Source: Armatimonadota bacterium (GTDB taxonomy: Bacteria; Armatimonadota; Zipacnadia; Zipacnadales; JABUFB01). From it: a DNA stretch of 64,000 bases. The notes beneath the pieces are model-generated. The model did no database searches and was not told where the DNA came from. It saw nothing but the letters and a program-made list of their open reading frames with translations. The stretch spans positions 62,001 to 126,000 of the forward strand of contig JABUFB010000001.1 of the NCBI GenBank assembly GCA_013314775.1, given 5' to 3'. The translations under genes were made by a program, and so were the position numbers. Shown piece by piece: positions 31,687 to 56,283 of this stretch (positions are counted from its first letter, which is position 1; the number at the start of each line of letters is the position of its first letter).

Positions 31687-34600
31687 TCAGTCGCCCTCCT
31701 TCGCCCAGACGCGGCGGTACTCATCCCAGGCGCGGGCGAGGAAGCGTCGAAATGCCTCGCTGGTGACGTCGGACTCGAAATGCACCTGGATGGCGATGCG
31801 GTCGTAGTCCCGGGTACGGGTGCGGATGCGGACCCGAGAGCCCCGGCCGAAGATGGGAACCTGGTCCACGTCGTCCCAGCTCGGCAAAGCGAGTTCTGCA
31901 GCCAGATCCTCCTCGTCGAAGGAGCCCTTGGGCACCCGGAAGGACAGGTCCAGCACCCAGCGTCGGTCGGTGCGAATGCGGGCGAACTCCACCGGGGCGC
32001 CTGTGGCCGAGAACAACACGCGGCCCCGGTCCGACCAGTCCGGCTCGGCCGCGCCCGGCAGTGCGCGCAGCATCGCCGCCAACTGGATCAGCGCCTCGTC
32101 GTGCCATGCAGGCGTCTCGCCCTGCTCATTCACGCGTTCCCGGGTATGCCAGCGCTCCCCATCCACCTCCCACGGGCGCTTGATGTCCTCGCCGCCGGGC
32201 AGGTCAACAGTCCGACGCCCAGTGCGGCGACGGACCTCAACCACGGCGCGTTCCTCGCGCGGGCTGGCATCCATCGCGGCCTTCAAATAAGGTGCGGTGA
32301 CGCCGGCAGCCTGTTCGACGATCTGTGCCGGCGTGCCCGCGGCCACCAAACGCCCACCGTCCTCGCCGCCACCGGGACCGAGATCAATCACGTAGTCAGC
32401 GGTCTTCACCACGTCCATATTGTGCTCGACGATGACCACCGAATGCCCGGCATCGACCAGGCGGTTCAGGACATCCAGCAGCTTGCGAATGTCCGCCACG
32501 TGCAGGCCGGTGGTAGGCTCGTCCAGCAGGTAGAGAGTGCGCGCAGCGGACGGGTGAGCCAGTTCCCGCGCAATCTTCACCCGTTGGGCCTCGCCGCCGG
32601 AGAGCGTGGGCGCTCCCTGTCCCAGCGGCAGGTATCCCAGTCCCACGTCCGAGAGGATTTGGAGCATCGCCTGGATGCGCGGGAACTCCGAGAAATGCTC
32701 CAGCGCCTGGTCCACGGACATCTCCAGCACGTCGGCAATGCTGCGGCCACGGTACTTGATGTCCAGCGTCTCGCGGTTGTAGCGCCGGCCTCGGCACTCC
32801 TCGCACTCCACCCAGACATCGGGCAGGAAGTGCATCTCTACCACCCGGAAGCCCATGCCCTGGCAGGCCTCGCACCGACCGCCCCGGGCGTTGAAGGAAA
32901 ATCGGCGCGGCGTGTAGCCCCGCATCTTTGCCTCAGGCAACCGGGCGAAAAGGTCGCGAATCGGGTCGAAGGCACCGATGTATGTTGCCGCATTGGAGCG
33001 CGGCGAGTAGCCGATGGCCGACTGGTCGATGCCCGACACGCGTTGCAGAGATTCGAACCCGGTGATCGCCCGATGATGGCCGGGCATGGTGTTGCGGCCA
33101 TGCAGGCGGTAAGACAACTCCTCGTACAGGATGTCTCCAATGAGTGAGCTCTTGCCTGAACCCGAGGGCCCGGTGACGCACACCAGCCGGCCCAGTGGGA
33201 TATCCACGTCGATGTTCTTCAGGTTGTTGTGGCGGGCGCCTTCGATGCGCAGCCAGCCTCCCGCGGAAGGGTCGCCGATTTCGCGCGGATTGGTGGGCAC
33301 CGGAACTGCAAGTTCGCCGCGCAGGAGGGCTCCGGTGCGGGACTTGCGCACTCTCTTGACCACATCCGGAGTGCCGGCCGCTGTGACCTGCCCCCCGGAA
33401 GGTCCGGCATCCGGACCGAAGTCGATGATGTGATCCGCGTGACTGAAGGTCTGTGGGTCGTGTTCCACCACCATCACCGTGTTGCCCAGGTCGCGCAGGC
33501 CTTCGAGAGCCGCCAGCATCCGGTCATTATCCCTGGGGTGGATACCCACTGTTGGTTCGTCCAGCACATACATGACCCCGGTGAGCCCTGAACCCAGTTG
33601 CCCCGCAAGTTTGACCCGCTGCGCTTCGCCGCCGGACAACGTGGGCGCAGGACGGTGCAAATGCAGGTACTCCAGGCCCACCTCCACCAGGAAGCGCAGG
33701 CGCGAGGTGATCTCCTGCAGGATCTCCCCGGCCACGGCGCTCTGGTCGGGCGTCAACTGGACCTCGCTCAGGAATGCAAGGGCATCATCCAGCGGCAGGC
33801 GGCACAGGTCCACGAGGGTCATGCCGCGGAAACGCACGGCGGCGGATTCCGCGCGGATCCGTCCTCCGTGGCACTCGGGGCAGGGCAGGTCGCCCACCGC
33901 GCGGGTGAACTGGCGGCGGAAATGGTGGCTGACTGCGGAGCCCTCCTCAATTCCCGGCGAGAGACCCGCGAACCGAACGCTGAGCCCCGGCTCCACCTGG
34001 AACTCGGCGTCGCTGCCCTCGAAGATCAGGCGCTTCTGGTCGGGGCTCAGGGTCTCGAAAGGCTGGTCCAGCGAAAAGCCGCCGTATTCGGCGAGGGCCT
34101 CCAAAGTGCGTTCCAGCAGTCCCCCGGACGCGATCTGATCCCAGATTGTGACTGCGCCCTGGCGGATGGACAGGCGTGGATCGGGAACCATGATCTCCGG
34201 GTCCAGGCCGCGCAGGACGCCCAGGCCCTCGCAGGTCGGGCACCAGCCCTCCCAGTGGTTGAAAGACAAGGCGCGGGGGGTGATGCGCGGATAGCTGGTG
34301 CCGCAGCGCGCACAGCCGTAATCGCGAGACATACGGAGGGCTTCGCCGTCCGAGGGTTCCCAGCCCGCCGCAATGACCTCGCCGCCCGAGGCCGAGAAAG
34401 CGCGCTCCACGGCTTCGGCAAGCCGCGCCCGGTCAGACTGGTGCGGGGTGAGGCGGTCCACCACCAGTTCCACATGGTGCCTGCGCCGGCGGTCAATGTG
34501 CGGGCCAGAGTAAGGCAAGGAGAGGATCTCGCCATCCACCCTCACCCGGTTCCAGCCATCTTTCGCCAGGCGTGTGAAAACGTCCAGGTACTCTTCATTT

Positions 34601-37600
34601 CCAGACGGTTTCACGGGCGCGAGAATCAGGGCGCGGCGTTCGCCGAAGTGCTCCAGGATGGCCTCGACCACATCCGCAACGCTGCGCGCACCCAGGGGAT
34701 CACCGCACTCGGGGCAGTGCGGCACACCCAGGCGCGCGTACAGCACCCGCAGGTAGTCGTAGATCTGGGTCTCGGTGCCCACGGTGGAGCGCGGCGTGCG
34801 CACCGCATTGCGCTGCTCGATGGCGATGCCCGGCGACAGGCCCGCAACCCGCTCCACCTTGGGCTTGGGCATCTGGCTGACGAACTGCCTGGCGTAGGAG
34901 GACAGAGACTCGCAGTACCTGCGCTGACCCTCCGCATAGACCGTGTCGAAGGCGAGAGAAGTCTTGCCGGAACCGCTGACTCCCGCGAAAACGGTGAACT
35001 TGCGGCGCGGGATGCGAACGTCAATGCCCTTGAGGTTGTGCTCCCGGGCGCCGAAAACCTCGATGTGCTCGCTGCGCGGGCGGGGCGATCGGCGCCGGTG
35101 ATGTTCGGGCGCGGCGCGGACCCTGCCCAGTTCCTGCATCTCCCGGAGCATGGCGCCGGTGTGTGACGTCAGGCGTTGAGCCACCTGCTCGGGCGTGCCC
35201 CTGGCCACCACGCGCCCGCCATCCGCGCCGCCTTCAGGCCCCATGTCGATGAGGTAGTCGGCGTTCTTGATGACATCCGGATGGTGCTCCACCACGATAA
35301 CAGTACTGCCGCCCTCCACGAACCGGTGCAGGACTTCCAGGAGCTTGCGGACATCCTCGAAATGCAGGCCGGTGGTGGGCTCGTCCAGGATATACAGGCA
35401 ACCCTCCCCGCCGGGACGGGCCAATTCCTTCGCGAGTTTGATGCGCTGGGCCTCGCCGCCGGAGACGGTGGTTGCGGGCTGCCCCAGCTTGATATAGCCG
35501 AGCCCCACGTCCCTCAGGGTCTCGAGAATGTGCCGGATGCGCGGCATGTTGCCGAACAGCTCCAGGGCATCGTTGACCTCGAGGTCCAGCACATCGCCGA
35601 TGTTGTGGCCTTTGAACTCGATGGATAGTGTCTCGCGGTCGAACCGTTCTCCCCCGCAGACCTCGCACGTCACCCAGACGTCCGCCAGGAAGTCGGACTC
35701 CAGCCTCACTGCACCGTGGCCCTCGCAGTTCCCGCAGCGGCCCTCCGGCACGTTGAAGCTGAACCGGCCGGGAGCATATCCTCGGGCGCGCGATTCCGGC
35801 AGTTGCGCGAAGAGGTCGCGGATATGGTCAAAGACTTTGGTGTACGTGGCCGGATTACTGCGCGGCGTGCGGCCGATGGGGTCCTGGTCGATCAGGATGA
35901 CCTTCTGCAGGTACTCGATGCCCTGGATCGCGGTGTGCTCACCGGGTTCGAGTTCGGCCCGGTGGAGACGGGATGCCAGCGCTGCGTACAGCGTGTCGGT
36001 GACCAGCGAGCTCTTGCCCGAACCCGAGACTCCCGTGACACAGATGAATGTCCCCAGCGGGAATGCCACGTCGACATTGCGCAGGTTGTTGTGACGAGCG
36101 CCCAGTATCTTCAGGACTTTCCCATTGCCCTTGCGACGCTTCTCGGGAGTGGCGATCTTGCGCTTGCCTGACAGGTATTGCCCGGTGAGGGAAGCCGGGT
36201 TGCGCTTCACCTGCCCGGGCGTGCCGCAGGCTACCACCTCGCCACCTTTCTCCCCGGCTCCCGGACCGAAATCCACGAGATAGTCGGCGGTGAGCATGGT
36301 CTGCTCATCATGCTCGACCACAATGATCGTGTTGTCCAGGTCGCGCAGGTGCAGGAGTGTATCCAGCAGCTTGCCCTGGTCTCGGTGGTGCAGGCCGATG
36401 CTGGGCTCGTCCAGTACGTACAGGCAGTCCACCAGTCCGCTGCCGACTTGACTCGCGAGGCGTATGCGCTGGGATTCGCCGCCGGAAAGCGTGGGTGCGG
36501 AACGGTCGAGGTTCAGATAGTGCAGGCCCACGTGGGACAGGAACCCCAGCCGGTCGCGCACTTCCTTGAGCGCATCCTCCGCGATCTGCGCCTCGGTGCG
36601 GCTCAGTTGGAGTGTGGTGATGAACCGCAGTGCATCCTCCACCGTGCGCTCGCACAGGTCGGAGATGGACAGACCACCGAGGGTGACCGCCAGGCTTTCG
36701 GGCTTCAGCCGCTTGCCACGGCAGGCGGGGCAGCGGCCAGTGTGCATGACCGCCTCATACTTGTCCCGTAGCACCCGGGCGCGCACCCGGTTCTGACGCC
36801 ACATCAGCCTGGCAATGATTCCGTCCCAGGGCTCGGCGTGGCGCCACTCCCATCCGTGCCGGGGATGTTTGAAGTAGTATTCCACCAGTTCGCCGCCGGA
36901 GCCATACAGCAGAACCTCACGCTGGTGGTCAGTGAGGTCGCGCCAGGGGGTGTCCAGTGAGAACCCGTAACGCCTCGCAACGCCCTCGTACCAGTGCCGG
37001 CGCTGGGGATTGTCCAGAGAGGGCAGAAGGGGAATCGCGCCGCGCGTCAGAGGCTTCTCCGGGTGCTCTACGAGAAGCGCCGGGTCCATGGTGCGGGTGG
37101 AACCCAGGCCCTGGCATTCGGGGCACATTCCTTGAGGGCTGTTGAAGGAAAATGAGGCGTGGGTGGGTTCGCGAAAACTCAAGCCGCAGGGCAGGCATGC
37201 GAAGCGGGTACTCAGAAGCATGTCCGGCTTGCCCTCCGCAGCCACCACAACGTCGCCTTCGGAAAGTTCCGCGGCCGCCTCTACCGCTTCGGACACCCGC
37301 GCGCGCACATCGCCCTGCAACTGAATGCGGTCGACGACGATCTCCACGTCATGTTTGCGCCGCCGGTCCAGTTCCGGCGGGTTTGCAATGTCGTGCAGCT
37401 GGCCGTCGATGCGCACGCGGACGTACCCGCGCTTGTGCATGTCTTCCAGCAGGTCCCTGAACTCCCCGCGACGGGCGCGGACGACCGGCGCGAGGATGCT
37501 TACCTGCGGAGTGTCCTCCAGCGCCAGAATTGCGCCGACGATGGCCTCACGGGTCTGGGCGCCGATGGGCTTACCGCATCGGGGGCAGTGTGGCTTGCCG

Positions 37601-37947
37601 ATGGCCGCGTACAGGACGCGCAGGTGGTCGTAGACTTCGGTGACCGTGGCCACGGTGGAGCGTGGATTGTGGCTGCGCGATCCTTGATGGATTGCAATGG
37701 CCGGCGCGAGGCCTTCCAGGCGCTCCACGCGCGGGCGAGGCAACTGCTGGAGAAACTGGCGCGCGTACGTGGACAGAGACTCCAGGTAGAGCCGCTGGCC
37801 CTCGGCGAAGAGGGTGTCGAAAGCCAGGGAGGACTTCCCCGAGCCGCTCACGCCCGTGAAGACGATGAGGGCATTGCCGGGCAGGTCGAGGTCAACCCCG
37901 TTGAGATTGTGTTCGCGGGCGCCGCGAATCAGGATACGATCGGACAT
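31687..37947 (-). CDS. uvrA: double-length excinuclease ABC subunit A (two fused UvrA units)
   Basis: UvrA finds DNA damage and loads UvrB in nucleotide excision repair. A normal UvrA has about 940 residues; this one has 2086. Unit 1 (about 1-955) and unit 2 (about 960-1890) each have the complete UvrA order. There are four Walker A motifs (GVSGSGKSS near 32-40 and 645, GVSGSGKTS near 992, GPSGSGKSS near 1597) and four signature motifs (SGGESQR or SGGEAQR). Each unit also has both zinc modules, for example CGNC...CEVC and CEAC...CEEC. A final 200 residues (WHTRERVNEQGETPAWHD and onward) are unrelated to UvrA. One polypeptide could therefore mimic the UvrA dimer. Tandem UvrA fusions are known in Chlamydia. 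Promoter: see the candidate SOS box at 38017. Confidence 0.95.
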   Translation of the reverse strand: MSDRILIRGAREHNLNGVDLDLPGNALIVFTGVSGSGKSSLAFDTLFAEGQRLYLESLSTYARQFLQQLPRPRVERLEGLAPAIAIHQGSRSHNPRSTVATVTEVYDHLRVLYAAIGKPHCPRCGKPIGAQTREAIVGAILALEDTPQVSILAPVVRARRGEFRDLLEDMHKRGYVRVRIDGQLHDIANPPELDRRRKHDVEIVVDRIQLQGDVRARVSEAVEAAAELSEGDVVVAAEGKPDMLLSTRFACLPCGLSFREPTHASFSFNSPQGMCPECQGLGSTRTMDPALLVEHPEKPLTRGAIPLLPSLDNPQRRHWYEGVARRYGFSLDTPWRDLTDHQREVLLYGSGGELVEYYFKHPRHGWEWRHAEPWDGIIARLMWRQNRVRARVLRDKYEAVMHTGRCPACRGKRLKPESLAVTLGGLSISDLCERTVEDALRFITTLQLSRTEAQIAEDALKEVRDRLGFLSHVGLHYLNLDRSAPTLSGGESQRIRLASQVGSGLVDCLYVLDEPSIGLHHRDQGKLLDTLLHLRDLDNTIIVVEHDEQTMLTADYLVDFGPGAGEKGGEVVACGTPGQVKRNPASLTGQYLSGKRKIATPEKRRKGNGKVLKILGARHNNLRNVDVAFPLGTFICVTGVSGSGKSSLVTDTLYAALASRLHRAELEPGEHTAIQGIEYLQKVILIDQDPIGRTPRSNPATYTKVFDHIRDLFAQLPESRARGYAPGRFSFNVPEGRCGNCEGHGAVRLESDFLADVWVTCEVCGGERFDRETLSIEFKGHNIGDVLDLEVNDALELFGNMPRIRHILETLRDVGLGYIKLGQPATTVSGGEAQRIKLAKELARPGGEGCLYILDEPTTGLHFEDVRKLLEVLHRFVEGGSTVIVVEHHPDVIKNADYLIDMGPEGGADGGRVVARGTPEQVAQRLTSHTGAMLREMQELGRVRAAPEHHRRRSPRPRSEHIEVFGAREHNLKGIDVRIPRRKFTVFAGVSGSGKTSLAFDTVYAEGQRRYCESLSSYARQFVSQMPKPKVERVAGLSPGIAIEQRNAVRTPRSTVGTETQIYDYLRVLYARLGVPHCPECGDPLGARSVADVVEAILEHFGERRALILAPVKPSGNEEYLDVFTRLAKDGWNRVRVDGEILSLPYSGPHIDRRRRHHVELVVDRLTPHQSDRARLAEAVERAFSASGGEVIAAGWEPSDGEALRMSRDYGCARCGTSYPRITPRALSFNHWEGWCPTCEGLGVLRGLDPEIMVPDPRLSIRQGAVTIWDQIASGGLLERTLEALAEYGGFSLDQPFETLSPDQKRLIFEGSDAEFQVEPGLSVRFAGLSPGIEEGSAVSHHFRRQFTRAVGDLPCPECHGGRIRAESAAVRFRGMTLVDLCRLPLDDALAFLSEVQLTPDQSAVAGEILQEITSRLRFLVEVGLEYLHLHRPAPTLSGGEAQRVKLAGQLGSGLTGVMYVLDEPTVGIHPRDNDRMLAALEGLRDLGNTVMVVEHDPQTFSHADHIIDFGPDAGPSGGQVTAAGTPDVVKRVRKSRTGALLRGELAVPVPTNPREIGDPSAGGWLRIEGARHNNLKNIDVDIPLGRLVCVTGPSGSGKSSLIGDILYEELSYRLHGRNTMPGHHRAITGFESLQRVSGIDQSAIGYSPRSNAATYIGAFDPIRDLFARLPEAKMRGYTPRRFSFNARGGRCEACQGMGFRVVEMHFLPDVWVECEECRGRRYNRETLDIKYRGRSIADVLEMSVDQALEHFSEFPRIQAMLQILSDVGLGYLPLGQGAPTLSGGEAQRVKIARELAHPSAARTLYLLDEPTTGLHVADIRKLLDVLNRLVDAGHSVVIVEHNMDVVKTADYVIDLGPGGGEDGGRLVAAGTPAQIVEQAAGVTAPYLKAAMDASPREERAVVEVRRRTGRRTVDLPGGEDIKRPWEVDGERWHTRERVNEQGETPAWHDEALIQLAAMLRALPGAAEPDWSDRGRVLFSATGAPVEFARIRTDRRWVLDLSFRVPKGSFDEEDLAAELALPSWDDVDQVPIFGRGSRVRIRTRTRDYDRIAIQVHFESDVTSEAFRRFLARAWDEYRRVWAKEGD

Positions 37948-41202: not shown

Positions 41203-42162
41203 CTAGACCAGGCGCGAAATGGGCTGTTTGCCCTGGAAGAAGAGCACCAGGTTCTGGGCGGTCTCCTCGCGGGCCTGGATGACGGCCTCTATTGAGTAAT
41301 AGGCCACGTGGGGGGTGATGATGACATTGGGCATGGAGCGCAGGGGGTGGTCCTGCGGGAGGGGTTCCGGATCGTGTACGTCGAGTCCGGCGCCGCCGAG
41401 ATGCCCGGACTGCAGCGCCGCCACAAGGTCGTCGGTGTGGACTACGCTGCCACGACAGGTGTTCACCAGGAACGCACCCTTTTTCATCTGCGCGAAGCGC
41501 TCGGCATTCATCATCTGCCTGGTTTCCGCGGTGCCGGGCACGTGGAGCGTAATGATGTCGGCTTCGCCCAGAAGTTCCTCAAGGCTTGATTTGACCTCGT
41601 CCACTTCCGGCACATTGGCGTTGGGCATGAAGGCGTCGTAGCCAATGACCTTCCGATAGAAGGGCTTTGCACGCACAGCAGATGCCCGGCCGATGCGCCC
41701 AAGACCCACCACGCCGTAGACCAGCTGATCCAGGCGGTGAGCCGGCAAGATCGGGTCCTCGCCCCAGCCTCCACCACGGACGAAATCGATGGTCTGCTGC
41801 AACCTGCGGCACAAGGCCAACGACAGGGTCAGGGCGTGGTCGGCCACATCCTGGACGCAGTAAGCGGGGACATTGAGGACCGCGATGCCCAGGTCCTTGC
41901 ACGCATCGAGGTCAATATTGTCCACGCCCACCCCATTGCGGCAGATGGCCTTGCACTTCGTCAGCTTGCTGAGCACCTCTCGTGGCAATGGGGCCCACTG
42001 GGTGATGATTGCGTCGGGATCCCCGATGGTAGCAAGCACTTCGTCGACGGTCTTGCACTGCGCGCGGTCGATCTTCGCGTCGATCTGGTCAAGGATCTTC
42101 TGTTCGAGATCCATGTCCTCCGCGAGAGTGTAATCAGACACGTACACGGTCAGCTTTGACAT
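41203..42162 (-). CDS. D-isomer 2-hydroxyacid dehydrogenase (CtBP-like)
   Basis: The 319-residue protein is an NAD-dependent 2-hydroxyacid dehydrogenase. NAD motif: GVVGLGRIGRA near residue 150. The catalytic triad is in place: Arg near 235 (NTCRGSVV), Glu near 264 (HDPEPLP) and His near 284 (TPHVAYYS). There is no extra C-terminal ACT domain, so it is shorter than most SerA proteins and resembles the C-terminal binding protein branch. The substrate (phosphoglycerate, glyoxylate or another 2-keto acid) cannot be told. AAGGAGA lies before the ATG. The phosphoglycerate mutase gene lies upstream on the same strand. Confidence 0.88.
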   Translation of the reverse strand: MSKLTVYVSDYTLAEDMDLEQKILDQIDAKIDRAQCKTVDEVLATIGDPDAIITQWAPLPREVLSKLTKCKAICRNGVGVDNIDLDACKDLGIAVLNVPAYCVQDVADHALTLSLALCRRLQQTIDFVRGGGWGEDPILPAHRLDQLVYGVVGLGRIGRASAVRAKPFYRKVIGYDAFMPNANVPEVDEVKSSLEELLGEADIITLHVPGTAETRQMMNAERFAQMKKGAFLVNTCRGSVVHTDDLVAALQSGHLGGAGLDVHDPEPLPQDHPLRSMPNVIITPHVAYYSIEAVIQAREETAQNLVLFFQGKQPISRLV

Positions 42163-42255
42163 CGCAGCTCTCCTTGGTTGGGTCTCGTCGGTTTCGAACA
42201 AGCCGGATGATGCGGATCGATGGAACCCGCGGATGGACGACTTAGTGTCAAGAAC

Positions 42256-43830
42256 TCATGCCACGTCAGGCACCGGGTGGCCTTCACCGAAGGCGAGGAG
42301 CCGATAGGCCATCTCGACACGATCCCAGTGCTGCTCTCGGTCCAGGGCCCAGTGGCGGCCGATGACTGAAACAAACTTGCCGGTGCCGAGCTCGCGGCAC
42401 AGACGCTCCACGTCGTTGACGTAGGCCGCTCCGCTTTCCGGGCGCTCGCCGCGCCTTCCCAGCAGACCGTGGACGTAGACTTCGGGCACCTTGCGCCGGG
42501 CACACAGGCGCAGCAACTCCTCCAGGTACTTCACCGAACCGTGGGAGGAAAAGAAGGAGATGATGCCAAGCAGGTGGAGCTTCTTGCCTTCGCGCAAGGC
42601 CCCGTCAATTGCCCAGTTGAATGCCGGATTATCATGGTACTCGCCGCTGTCCATGGCCCTGGCGATGCGCAGGCGGTCCGAGGGTATACAACGCCCGGCG
42701 CCGATGTGAAGGTGCCCGGCTTCGGAATTGCCCACCGTACCTTCGGGCATCCCAGCGGCGGACCCGCTGGCCTTCAGGGATGTCCAGGGGAACTGTTCCA
42801 GAAGCCCATCCAGCCCCGGGGTCTCGGCCTGGGTTATCAGGTTGGCGGCTGCGTCGTCGTTCAACCCCCACCCGTCAACAATGAGCAGCAGCACTCGGCC
42901 AGTGCTGCCTGATGGAGCCCGGAACAGAGGCTTGCCGGTCATCTCCGTCGGCACCGGCGCGCCGAGCAGGGTGAGAACCGTTGGGGCCACGTCGGTCAGG
43001 TCGCCACCTTCACGAAGCTGGACCTGTCCCCGGCCGCACACCACGAAGGGCACCGGACTGTCGGTGTGCCCGGTGTCGATGGCGCCCTCGGGGTAGTACC
43101 ACTTCTCCACGCTTCCATGGTCGGCGGTGACCAGCGCCGTCACACCGGCCTGCAGCGCAGCATCCACAACCCGCTTCACCTGTGGGTCCACGGCGCGGAT
43201 TGCGCTGAGAACCGCCTCGCGGTCCTCAATGTGGCCCACTACGTCCATGTTCGCGAAGTTGGCGACGATTAGGTCATAGCTCGGGTCAGCGAGCTTCTCG
43301 ATGACTGCGTCTGCGACGTCCGCGACATTCATCTCGGGTAATTCGTCGAAGTCATCGACCTCGCGATTGGACTCGATGATGACCTGTTCCTCGCCGGGCC
43401 ACGGGTTTGCGTGCTTGCCATTCAGGAAGTAGGTGAGGTGGATGGCCTTCTCTGACTCTGCGATCTTCACCTGGCGCAGTCCGGCGGCGCTCACGGCTTC
43501 AGACAGTGTCCCAGTGATGGCTCCGATGGGGGGGAAGGCCACATGCTCGGTTATCTCCGGCGCATACCGGATCATGGTGGCCATGTGGACGGTCATGCCG
43601 TCTTTGGTGGGGAACCGGCTGAATCCGGGCTGGGTCAGAGACTGGGCAAGCTGGACCTCGCGCTCCCCGCGGATGTTATAGAAGATGACATAGTCACCAT
43701 CGTCCATGCAGCCCACGGGGATTCCGGCCGCATCCACGAGGTGCAGGCCGGGCATGGTCTCGTCCTCTTCACCGCGGCGGTAAGCCTCGCTCACAGCCCG
43801 CGCGACGGGTGTGTCAAAACCTGAACTCAT
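42256..43830 (-). CDS. gpmI: circularly permuted cofactor-independent phosphoglycerate mutase-like protein
   Basis: All parts of iPGM are present but in permuted order. Residues 1-310 match the part that normally comes second: AVSEAYRRGEEDE (12-24), DGDYVIFYNIR, AESEKAIHLTYF, NFANMDVVGH (about 189-198), TADHG (about 234-238), HTDSPVPF and PTEMTGKP. Residues about 313-524 match the normal start: IVDGWGLN (about 317-324), GNSEAGHLHIGAGR with the catalytic Ser near 369, GRHWALDRE and, at the very end, WDRVEMAYRL. The new ends lie within the phosphate-transfer domain, and the old ends are joined by a short linker. Metal ligands and most substrate contacts are kept. The usual DGRD motif reads GRRG, so activity is not certain. 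Confidence 0.88.
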   Translation of the reverse strand: MSSGFDTPVARAVSEAYRRGEEDETMPGLHLVDAAGIPVGCMDDGDYVIFYNIRGEREVQLAQSLTQPGFSRFPTKDGMTVHMATMIRYAPEITEHVAFPPIGAITGTLSEAVSAAGLRQVKIAESEKAIHLTYFLNGKHANPWPGEEQVIIESNREVDDFDELPEMNVADVADAVIEKLADPSYDLIVANFANMDVVGHIEDREAVLSAIRAVDPQVKRVVDAALQAGVTALVTADHGSVEKWYYPEGAIDTGHTDSPVPFVVCGRGQVQLREGGDLTDVAPTVLTLLGAPVPTEMTGKPLFRAPSGSTGRVLLLIVDGWGLNDDAAANLITQAETPGLDGLLEQFPWTSLKASGSAAGMPEGTVGNSEAGHLHIGAGRCIPSDRLRIARAMDSGEYHDNPAFNWAIDGALREGKKLHLLGIISFFSSHGSVKYLEELLRLCARRKVPEVYVHGLLGRRGERPESGAAYVNDVERLCRELGTGKFVSVIGRHWALDREQHWDRVEMAYRLLAFGEGHPVPDVA

Positions 43831-54027: not shown

Positions 54028-55737
54028 TCACACGCCCACGGGTGCGGTTTCCATCATGTCATCGAAGGTCTTGCCGGCCGGGATCATTGGGTACACGTTC
54101 TCCTCACCGGGTACTCGGAAGTCCATGATGGTCGGGCGATCCGTGATCTCCAGCGACTTCTCAAGCGTCGCGCGCACGTCTTCCTTGCGCTCCACCCTGA
54201 ACCCGACAGCGCCGTAAGCTTCAGCGAGTTTCACGAAGTCCGGGTTGCCGGTCAGGAGCGTTGCGCTGTAGCGCTTCTCATAAAACAGGTCCTGCCACTG
54301 GCGCACCATGCCCAGGCAGGAGTTGTTCAGGATTACGATCTTCACCGGCAACTTGTGGACCACCGCCGTGGCAAGCTCCTGGATGCACATCTGGATCGAA
54401 CCGTCGCCGGCGATGTCCACAACCACCTTGTCCGGATTGCCCAGTTGCGCGCCAATTGCCGCGGGGAAGCCGTAACCCATGGTCCCCAGCCCGCTGGATG
54501 TAAGGAACTGGCGCGGGCGAATGCACTTGTAGTACTGGCACGCCCACATCTGGTTCTGGCCCACCTCGGTAGTCACGATGGCCTCATTGCCCGTGACTTC
54601 GCCCAGTGTCTCCACGATGTATTGCGGGGCGATGCCGTCTTCCGGATCTGTGTTGTAGCTCAGTGGGTGGGTGCGGCGCCACTCGTCGAGGTGCGCTTCC
54701 CACTGTCCCGGCTGCCGCGGGTTGACCTGGGGCACGAGTTGTTCCAGGACCTTTTTCGCGTCGCCGTGGATGCCCACGTCGGCGCGGCGCACCTTGTTGA
54801 TTTCTGCGCGGTCCACGTCAATGTGGATAACCTTCGCTTCCGGCGCGAACTTGCTCGGGTCGCCGGTGACGCGGTCGTCAAAACGCGCGCCGATGCAGAT
54901 GATGAGCCCGGCATGCTGCAGCGCGTGGCTGGCGTACGCCATCCCGTGCATCCCTGGCATGCCCATAGACAGCGGGTCGGTCTCCGGGAAGGCGCCTTTG
55001 CCCATGGTGGTGTGCACCACGCAGATGTTGGCCTTATGGGCAAGCTCGCGTAGCAAGTCGGATGCGCCCGAGGAAATGACGCCGCCGCCGATGTACAGGA
55101 TCGGCTTCTCCGCGGCATTGATCATCTCGGCGGCCTTGCGCACGAGTTCGGGGTCGCCAGGCCCCGGCGGATCGTATCCCGGAATGGGACTGAACCCCCG
55201 GTCGTGCCAGGTGCAGGGGGCGGCACTCACGTCGAAAGGCACGTCAATGAGAACCGGGCCGGGCCTACCGCTGCGCGCGATGTAGAAGGCCTCCCGCACC
55301 ACGTCGGGCAGGTCGCAGGCGTTTTTCAGCAGGTAGTTGTGCTTAGTGATCGGCATGGTCACACCGATCGTGTCGGCTTCCTGGAAGGCGTCCTTGCCGA
55401 TAGCGTGGGTCTTCACCTGGCCGGTGATCGCCACCATCGGCACGGAATCCATGTACGCGGTGGCCAGTCCGGTCACCAGATTCATGGCTCCCGGTCCGCT
55501 GGTGGCCATGACCACTCCCACCTTGCCGGTGGAACGCGCGTAACCATCCGCAGCATGCGCGCCGCCTTGCTCATGCCTGGGAAGCACGTGGAGGATCGAG
55601 CCGTCCTGAATCTTGTGGTAGAGCTTGTCATAAATCGGGATCACGGCGCCACCCGGGAACCCGAACACCACGTTGACGTCCTCCTGTTCGAAGACTCTGA
55701 GGAGGCCGTCAGCGCCGGTGAATGTTGTCTGTGTCAT
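54028..55737 (-). CDS. ilvB: acetolactate synthase large (catalytic) subunit
   Basis: IlvB condenses two pyruvates, or pyruvate and 2-ketobutyrate, with TPP, FAD and Mg. The 569-residue protein has the N-terminal motif VVFGFPGGAVIPIYD, the catalytic Glu near RHEQGGAHAADGYAR, and the TPP motif GDGSIQMCIQEL...NN. It is full length from this ATG, which follows GAGGTG. A longer in-frame reading continues upstream without a stop and would add a second copy of the N-terminal segment (see 55738-55947). A large subunit of normal length from 55737 is the more likely product. Confidence 0.95.
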   Translation of the reverse strand: MTQTTFTGADGLLRVFEQEDVNVVFGFPGGAVIPIYDKLYHKIQDGSILHVLPRHEQGGAHAADGYARSTGKVGVVMATSGPGAMNLVTGLATAYMDSVPMVAITGQVKTHAIGKDAFQEADTIGVTMPITKHNYLLKNACDLPDVVREAFYIARSGRPGPVLIDVPFDVSAAPCTWHDRGFSPIPGYDPPGPGDPELVRKAAEMINAAEKPILYIGGGVISSGASDLLRELAHKANICVVHTTMGKGAFPETDPLSMGMPGMHGMAYASHALQHAGLIICIGARFDDRVTGDPSKFAPEAKVIHIDVDRAEINKVRRADVGIHGDAKKVLEQLVPQVNPRQPGQWEAHLDEWRRTHPLSYNTDPEDGIAPQYIVETLGEVTGNEAIVTTEVGQNQMWACQYYKCIRPRQFLTSSGLGTMGYGFPAAIGAQLGNPDKVVVDIAGDGSIQMCIQELATAVVHKLPVKIVILNNSCLGMVRQWQDLFYEKRYSATLLTGNPDFVKLAEAYGAVGFRVERKEDVRATLEKSLEITDRPTIMDFRVPGEENVYPMIPAGKTFDDMMETAPVGV

Positions 55738-55947
55738 GTCTTGCACCTCGCGTCCGTTCTGTGTGGGGCTCGCGGGGTCGGCGGACTCGCCGGGGATGCA
55801 GCGGATGCCCGCCTTCCGGGCCTTGGAGTACAAGCGGTCGTAGATCGGCATCAGCGCGGCGCCGGGGTAACCGAAGATCACGTCAACTGACTGCTCCTCG
55901 AACACCTTTAGCACGGCGTCCGCGCCGATGAAGTCTTTGTCAGGCAT
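55738..55947 (-). pseudogene. in-frame partial duplication of the ilvB 5' end
   Basis: A 70-codon segment begins with an ATG (MPDKDFIGADAVLKVFEEQ) that has its own GGGAG site. The part SVDVIFGYPGAALMPIYDRL closely matches residues of the true ilvB start (FGFPGGAVIPIYDKL). After about 45 residues the similarity ends, and unrelated codons lead in frame into the ilvB ATG. It is therefore a truncated tandem copy. If used as a start it would give a 639-residue IlvB with a doubled N terminus; otherwise it is a short untranslated or abortive leader peptide. Confidence 0.7.
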
Positions 55948-56283
55948 GGGTATCACTCCCGGTCAGCAGTGTACGGTGCTCGAACTCACACTGGTTCTGG
56001 CCGGGATACCTGTGACACCTGAATCACCTCGAGTTGGTCGGTTGGGTACGGCGCGATTGCGACGGGAAGGCGAAAGGTACTGCACGGGCCATATCTGGGC
56101 TTGCAAGAGCAAGATCGCCCGCACTTGTACAGCTTCCGCGATGTCGCGACAGTCTCGCGGGCGAACTCGATCCTGCAAGGGAGCCGCGGGGACGGGGCAA
56201 TCGGGCCCGTGTCCGTCATCGGCTTGGACAGCGAACCACCAGCCTGGATCCGCCAGGGGGGTGAGGCCGCCCTTCGCCGTCCT
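55948..56283. other. gap between ilvB segment and ilvD
   Basis: About 330 bases without a gene. No hairpin, operator or promoter could be supported here. Confidence 0.45.

Follow-up and report, generated by a model that had tools for sequence, protein, structure and literature searches.

The window, the whole 64,000-nucleotide stretch of DNA that was analysed, carries a gene for a protein of the cofactor-independent phosphoglycerate mutase family (GpmI/iPGM) in which the two parts of the enzyme stand in swapped order. The coding strand of this ORF (43830..42256), which an earlier note on the sequence had not given, is the minus strand. The gene, its parts and its downstream neighbour are listed below, with equivalent residues in the numbering of B. 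stearothermophilus iPGM (BsiPGM).

42256..43830, minus strand: permuted iPGM gene, 524 aa, ATG start, single uninterrupted frame
42922..43797, minus strand: first segment, residues 12-303, equivalent to BsiPGM 219-509 (phmmer to 1ejj, residue mapping)
42895..42921, minus strand: linker, residues 304-312, connecting the former C- and N-termini (phmmer to 1ejj)
42274..42894, minus strand: second segment, residues 313-519, equivalent to BsiPGM 6-212 (phmmer to 1ejj, residue mapping)
42724..42726, minus strand: S369, corresponding to catalytic serine S62, conserved in 63/63 permuted proteins
42535..42558, minus strand: changed substrate loop 1, residues 425-432, SFFSSHGS (SDGGVHSH in normal iPGM; residue mapping)
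42436..42462, minus strand: changed substrate loop 2, residues 457-465, LGRRGERPE (LDGRDVGPQ in BsiPGM; residue mapping)
41203..42201, minus strand: D-isomer 2-hydroxyacid dehydrogenase, downstream of the permuted gene (best model PGDH, below its cut-off)

Comparison with BsiPGM (1ejj) by phmmer aligned residues 313-519 with 6-212 (i-Evalue 3e-49) and residues 12-303 with 219-509 (i-Evalue 1.8e-61). The Pfam families Metalloenzyme and iPGM_N were both matched, in the opposite order to the usual one, and NCBIfam model TIGR01307 scored 439.5 bits (equivalog cut-off 330.65), split into two stretches that were again swapped; the score against PRK05434 was below the cut-off of that model (376.2 versus 862). 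The first segment covers the last portion of the transferase domain followed by the C-terminal portion of the phosphatase domain, and holds the metal ligands D196/H200, D237/H238 and H255 together with R54, R57 and K128 (residue mapping). The second covers the N-terminal portion of the phosphatase domain, which includes D319 and the nucleophile S369, and the initial portion of the transferase domain. The window protein does not have the normal GpmI domain order of phosphatase N-part, transferase domain and phosphatase C-part. The 524-aa protein is a circularly permuted GpmI/iPGM, and phmmer, Pfam and TIGR01307 agree on the swapped parts in one uninterrupted frame that the earlier note had described.

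The segment matches locate the cut between BsiPGM 212 and 219, in the loop 213-218 of the inserted transferase domain, the domain in which a cut had been thought structurally feasible. No more than about six residues of normal iPGM (BsiPGM 213-218) lack a counterpart where the cut was made. The end of the permuted protein does therefore run into its start, as had been noticed from the letters. The linker has nine residues in the window protein and 7-24 residues (median 12) across the permuted family.

A model predicted by AlphaFold2 from a 63-row alignment had a pLDDT of 92.3 and a pTM of 0.89, and the two halves are thus predicted to pack together, consistent with the foldable permutant that had been supposed. 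An iPGM fold with both domains assembled was found in this model and by Foldseek, which returned 22 PDB chains at a probability of 1.0, iPGMs without exception. Each match spanned about 260-320 columns, or approximately half of the length, with a TM of about 0.4-0.5. This is expected, because a sequential aligner was applied to a permutant; the PDB copy searched contained no match over the full (permuted) length.

Elsewhere in the window, a 2086-aa ORF (31687..37947, minus strand) reads as two complete UvrA units in one frame, with the ABC ATPase and zinc motifs repeated. The frame of an acetolactate synthase large subunit (54028..55956, minus strand) opens by partly duplicating the N-terminus of the protein (GADAVLKVFEEQSVDVIFGYPGAALMPIYDRLY, followed by GADGLLRVFEQEDVNVVFGFPGGAVIPIYDKLY).

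Distribution and origin of the permuted order

Contigs of GTDB representatives were scanned with patterns built from the permuted family. The scan identified 72 loci, 71 of them permuted, a proportion that is not informative on the frequency of normal iPGM since the patterns came from the permuted family. The sole normal-order iPGM of the genome scan (L104, 9971-11506, Liptonbacteria) lies on a very long branch. Homologues with the same order, which the earlier note had proposed to seek, numbered 62 full-length proteins, giving 63 with the window protein. Identity of same-order orthologues was 94 % within the genus, 73 % within the family and 67 % and 60 % within the order; one further genome of the host order carried the gene as two contig fragments. 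The cut site was identical in all permuted proteins, with 1-15 residues left after BsiPGM 212.

Hosts of the permuted family belonged to about 12 phyla, bacterial and archaeal. The bacterial hosts were Armatimonadota, Chloroflexota, Aminicenantes/Acidobacteriota, Thermodesulfobacteriota, Myxococcota, Zixibacteriota, Neomarinimicrobiota, Cloacimonadota, Planctomycetota, Fibrobacterota and others, while the archaeal hosts were Hodarchaeota and Methanomassiliicoccales. Two of the assemblies with the gene were at chromosome level (CP070825.1 and CP070739.1). Viral copies were looked for and none was found.

A phylogenetic tree was reconstructed from the 63 permuted proteins and eight normal iPGMs rotated into register (a quick tree with SH-aLRT support and without bootstrap). 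The permuted proteins formed one clade (SH-aLRT 100), and the natural permutation first proposed for a single protein is therefore an order common to 63 monophyletic proteins. Members from Desulfobacterales, Myxococcota and Fibrobacterota were nested in Chloroflexota, which suggests that the permuted gene spread between phyla by lateral transfer. Other odd placements, such as that of a Clostridiales bin (L077) next to Aminicenantes, may be binning errors.

The majority of these sequences are metagenome-assembled, as would suit an artefact of assembly or annotation that arose from fragments of two adjacent genes or from a chimeric contig. However, the frame is intact across the joint, and the joint is identical in 63 proteins and present in two chromosome-level assemblies. 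Assembly error is ruled out by the same order at 62 other full-length, independent loci. Comparison with the 94 %-identical orthologue of the same genus gave a dN of 0.039, a dS of 0.41 and a low dN/dS of about 0.1 (NG86), with 124 of 167 differences at third codon positions. The permuted gene is under strong purifying selection, which also speaks against an artefact, and we consider this explanation extremely improbable. A search of literature available without subscription found no published link between circular permutation and iPGM.

Conserved active site and replaced substrate loops

Residues were mapped in BsiPGM numbering over the 63 permuted proteins. Equivalents of the metal ligands and nucleophile (D12, S62, D403, H407, D444, H445 and H462) were present in 63/63, as were those of the phosphate- and carboxylate-binding residues H123, R153, R261, R264 and K336. 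Equivalents of R185 and R191 were present in 62/63, the remaining row being truncated.

In iPGM, the loops SDGGVHSH and DGRD place the glycerate hydroxyls, and in BsiPGM (1ejj/1o98) D154 reportedly touches the glycerate hydroxyl. Both loops were different in the permuted proteins. Loop 1 had the family signature S(F/H)(Y/F)SSHG(S/T), in which D119-G120-G121-V122 are replaced by (F/H)-(Y/F)-S-S and S124 by G; S425, S428, S429, H430 and G431 were invariant in all 63 proteins. For loop 2, the observation that DGRD reads GRRG (residues 458-461) was extended to a family-wide GRRGE, since G458, R459, R460, G461 and E462 were invariant (63/63) where BsiPGM has D151-G152-R153-D154-V155. The acidic residues D151, D154 and D119 are lost in the family. 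The loops flanking the substrate on both sides were thus exchanged together and have stayed fixed since, and the permuted pocket would have lost three acidic residues and gained an Arg and a Glu.

A search of the host phylum (291 genomes) with the segment bearing both loops located permuted proteins in seven of the genomes (one fragmented), all with GRRGE. Normal-order proteins kept DGRD, apart from two long degenerate homologues and a protein with DGVD, and mostly kept S(D/N)G(G/N)VH. No normal-order protein with GRRGE, as would be an evolutionary intermediate, was found in the 291 genomes. Order and signature are perfectly linked within the host phylum. Two frames of 963-996 aa in this phylum (L162 and L166, in genomes G305 and G306) contain an iPGM-like region in normal order with catalytic motifs that look degenerate (GSASAGY/GSAAAGF for the GNSE region and DGHD/DGYD for DGRD).

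Other mutases, gene neighbourhood and possible reaction

In the iPGM reaction, phosphate is transferred through a phosphoserine in the active site, and metals and domain closure take part (PMC12077085, PMC5382265). Conservation of the catalytic residues makes the same phosphoserine half-reaction likely in the permuted protein, while replacement of the glycerate-positioning loops by the invariant S[F/H][Y/F]SSHG and GRRGE makes a preference for a substrate other than 3PG/2PG probable. The reading that we favour, with a probability of roughly 0.65, is a permuted iPGM subfamily of ancient origin and lateral spread that would still be a phosphoserine phosphotransferase and probably uses a substrate other than 3PG/2PG. 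One ancient circular permutation of a bacterial GpmI would have founded a distinct family, later spread across phyla, with a short linker joining the old termini and new termini opening in the BsiPGM 212-219 loop of the transferase domain. The protein is predicted to fold as an iPGM, with a binuclear metal domain of alkaline-phosphatase type and a transferase domain closing on the substrate. S369 would take the phosphate of a small phospho-carboxylate, possibly gripped by K128, R54, R57, H430, R460, R492 and R498, between the two metals to form phosphoserine, and the phosphate would then be handed back to an acceptor. Both the activity and the changed substrate are inferred, and the most likely alteration would be in the acceptor or leaving group.

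A plain phosphatase, in which the phosphoserine is discharged to water now that the residues presenting the glycerate hydroxyls are gone, overlaps with this changed-substrate reading. The phosphatase half is fully conserved and the transferase-side loops are replaced, as a phosphatase would predict. However, the transferase domain is strictly retained together with R460, R492 and R498, and conservation of the new loops is as strong as that of the catalytic core, features that a plain phosphatase would not need. We regard this explanation as unlikely.

Whether the permuted protein acts in glycolysis bears on the remaining alternative. A search for another mutase gene, also suggested in the earlier note, found in the window genome (98 % complete) an ApgM over the PRK04024 equivalog cut-off and no normal GpmI. 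An ApgM-family protein over the TIGR00306 cut-off was present in 40/44 genomes with the permuted gene; normal GpmI was present in G068, G072, G081 and G100, and dPGM in G092 and G078. An unambiguous second PGM was present in 41/44, a count that treats the ApgM matches in other genomes as mutases by family score. The other three hosts (G093, G090 and G071) are MAGs and possibly incomplete: nothing was found in the search of G093, and in G090 and G071 no dPGM was over its cut-off and the ApgM-family proteins resemble a sequence matching a 'proposed homoserine kinase' model. In the host order, ApgM was nearly universal and the permuted gene patchy, and one genome (G007) had the permuted gene and a normal GpmI without an ApgM over the cut-off. 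Together these patterns argue that glycolytic mutase work does not usually fall to the permuted protein and is probably done by ApgM, normal GpmI or dPGM. Co-occurrence is not proof of a new function, because redundant PGMs are common in bacteria (PMC2964296).

The same redundancy would suit a permuted isoform that is still a 3PG/2PG mutase, adding to or backing up ApgM, with E462 and R459 in place of D154 and D151. The TIGR01307 equivalog cut-off is exceeded, the nucleophile, metal ligands and substrate Arg/Lys/His are conserved throughout, E462 could stand in for D154 as a base, and three hosts have no unambiguous second PGM. Against this, the three lost aspartates give way to one new signature fixed in 63/63 proteins, ordinary normal-order relatives retain DGRD, and hosts without ApgM usually have a normal GpmI or dPGM too. 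We consider such an isoform improbable, although less so than a plain phosphatase.

The gene neighbourhood was also compared. The same dehydrogenase neighbour was found in two related genomes, an association only, and fits a hydroxyacid-type substrate weakly. A conserved operon was rejected since neighbours vary by lineage: a 2-hydroxyacid dehydrogenase in the host family, and an ABC-2 transporter, M23 peptidase and amidohydrolase in Aminicenantes. With neighbours differing in this way, the substrate is not readable from context. A PIG-L deacetylase was located upstream in three related Chloroflexota (Ardenticatenales: L046, L047 and L050), possibly by chance. Sulfate activation, CysQ or PAP-phosphatase-like genes adjoined the permuted gene at four scattered loci (L042, L047, L049 and L065), where chance is again possible. 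A phosphinothricin/phosphonate link was rejected, as the PhpG model matches ApgM-type proteins and not the permuted protein; no phosphonate genes were seen near the permuted gene, and a literature search on the link was also empty.

Significance and comparison with known systems

To our knowledge, enzymes of central metabolism are rarely circularly permuted in nature, and in this family the permutation is coupled to a fixed active-site loop change across about 12 phyla. This provides a clean system for asking whether a new terminus in a substrate-binding domain helps a new function to evolve. Whether the permutation and rebuilt pocket, fixed together, define a new enzyme family with a reaction other than phosphoglycerate mutation across these phyla seems to us evenly poised. 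Mis-annotation is likely: with its score above the TIGR01307 cut-off, the permuted protein would receive the name of a glycolytic PGM, yet its hosts mostly have another. A new phospho-carboxylate reaction may hide in these mostly uncultured lineages.

Among known systems, GpmI/iPGM (TIGR01307, PRK05434; 1ejj, 1o98, 2ify, 4my4) shares about 35-40 % identity over both segments, the binuclear metal site, the catalytic serine, the substrate Arg/Lys/His and the predicted fold. The permuted protein differs in being cut at BsiPGM 212/219, in its replaced SDGGVHSH and DGRD loops and in forming a separate clade. ApgM (TIGR00306, PRK04024, PRK04135) belongs to the same alkaline phosphatase superfamily and accompanies the permuted gene in most hosts, but is about 400 aa long and not permuted; the permuted protein scored 31.9 bits against TIGR00306 (cut-off 320). 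PhpG (NF038358), the CMP-5'-phosphonoformate--3-phosphoglycerate phosphonoformyl transferase, illustrates how a relative of PGM can be taken over for another transfer reaction, and its model was absent from the profile matches of the permuted protein. Glutathione synthetase is likewise a natural permutation of a metabolic enzyme, but of an unrelated family, and there the permuted form retains the same reaction (PMC2876114).
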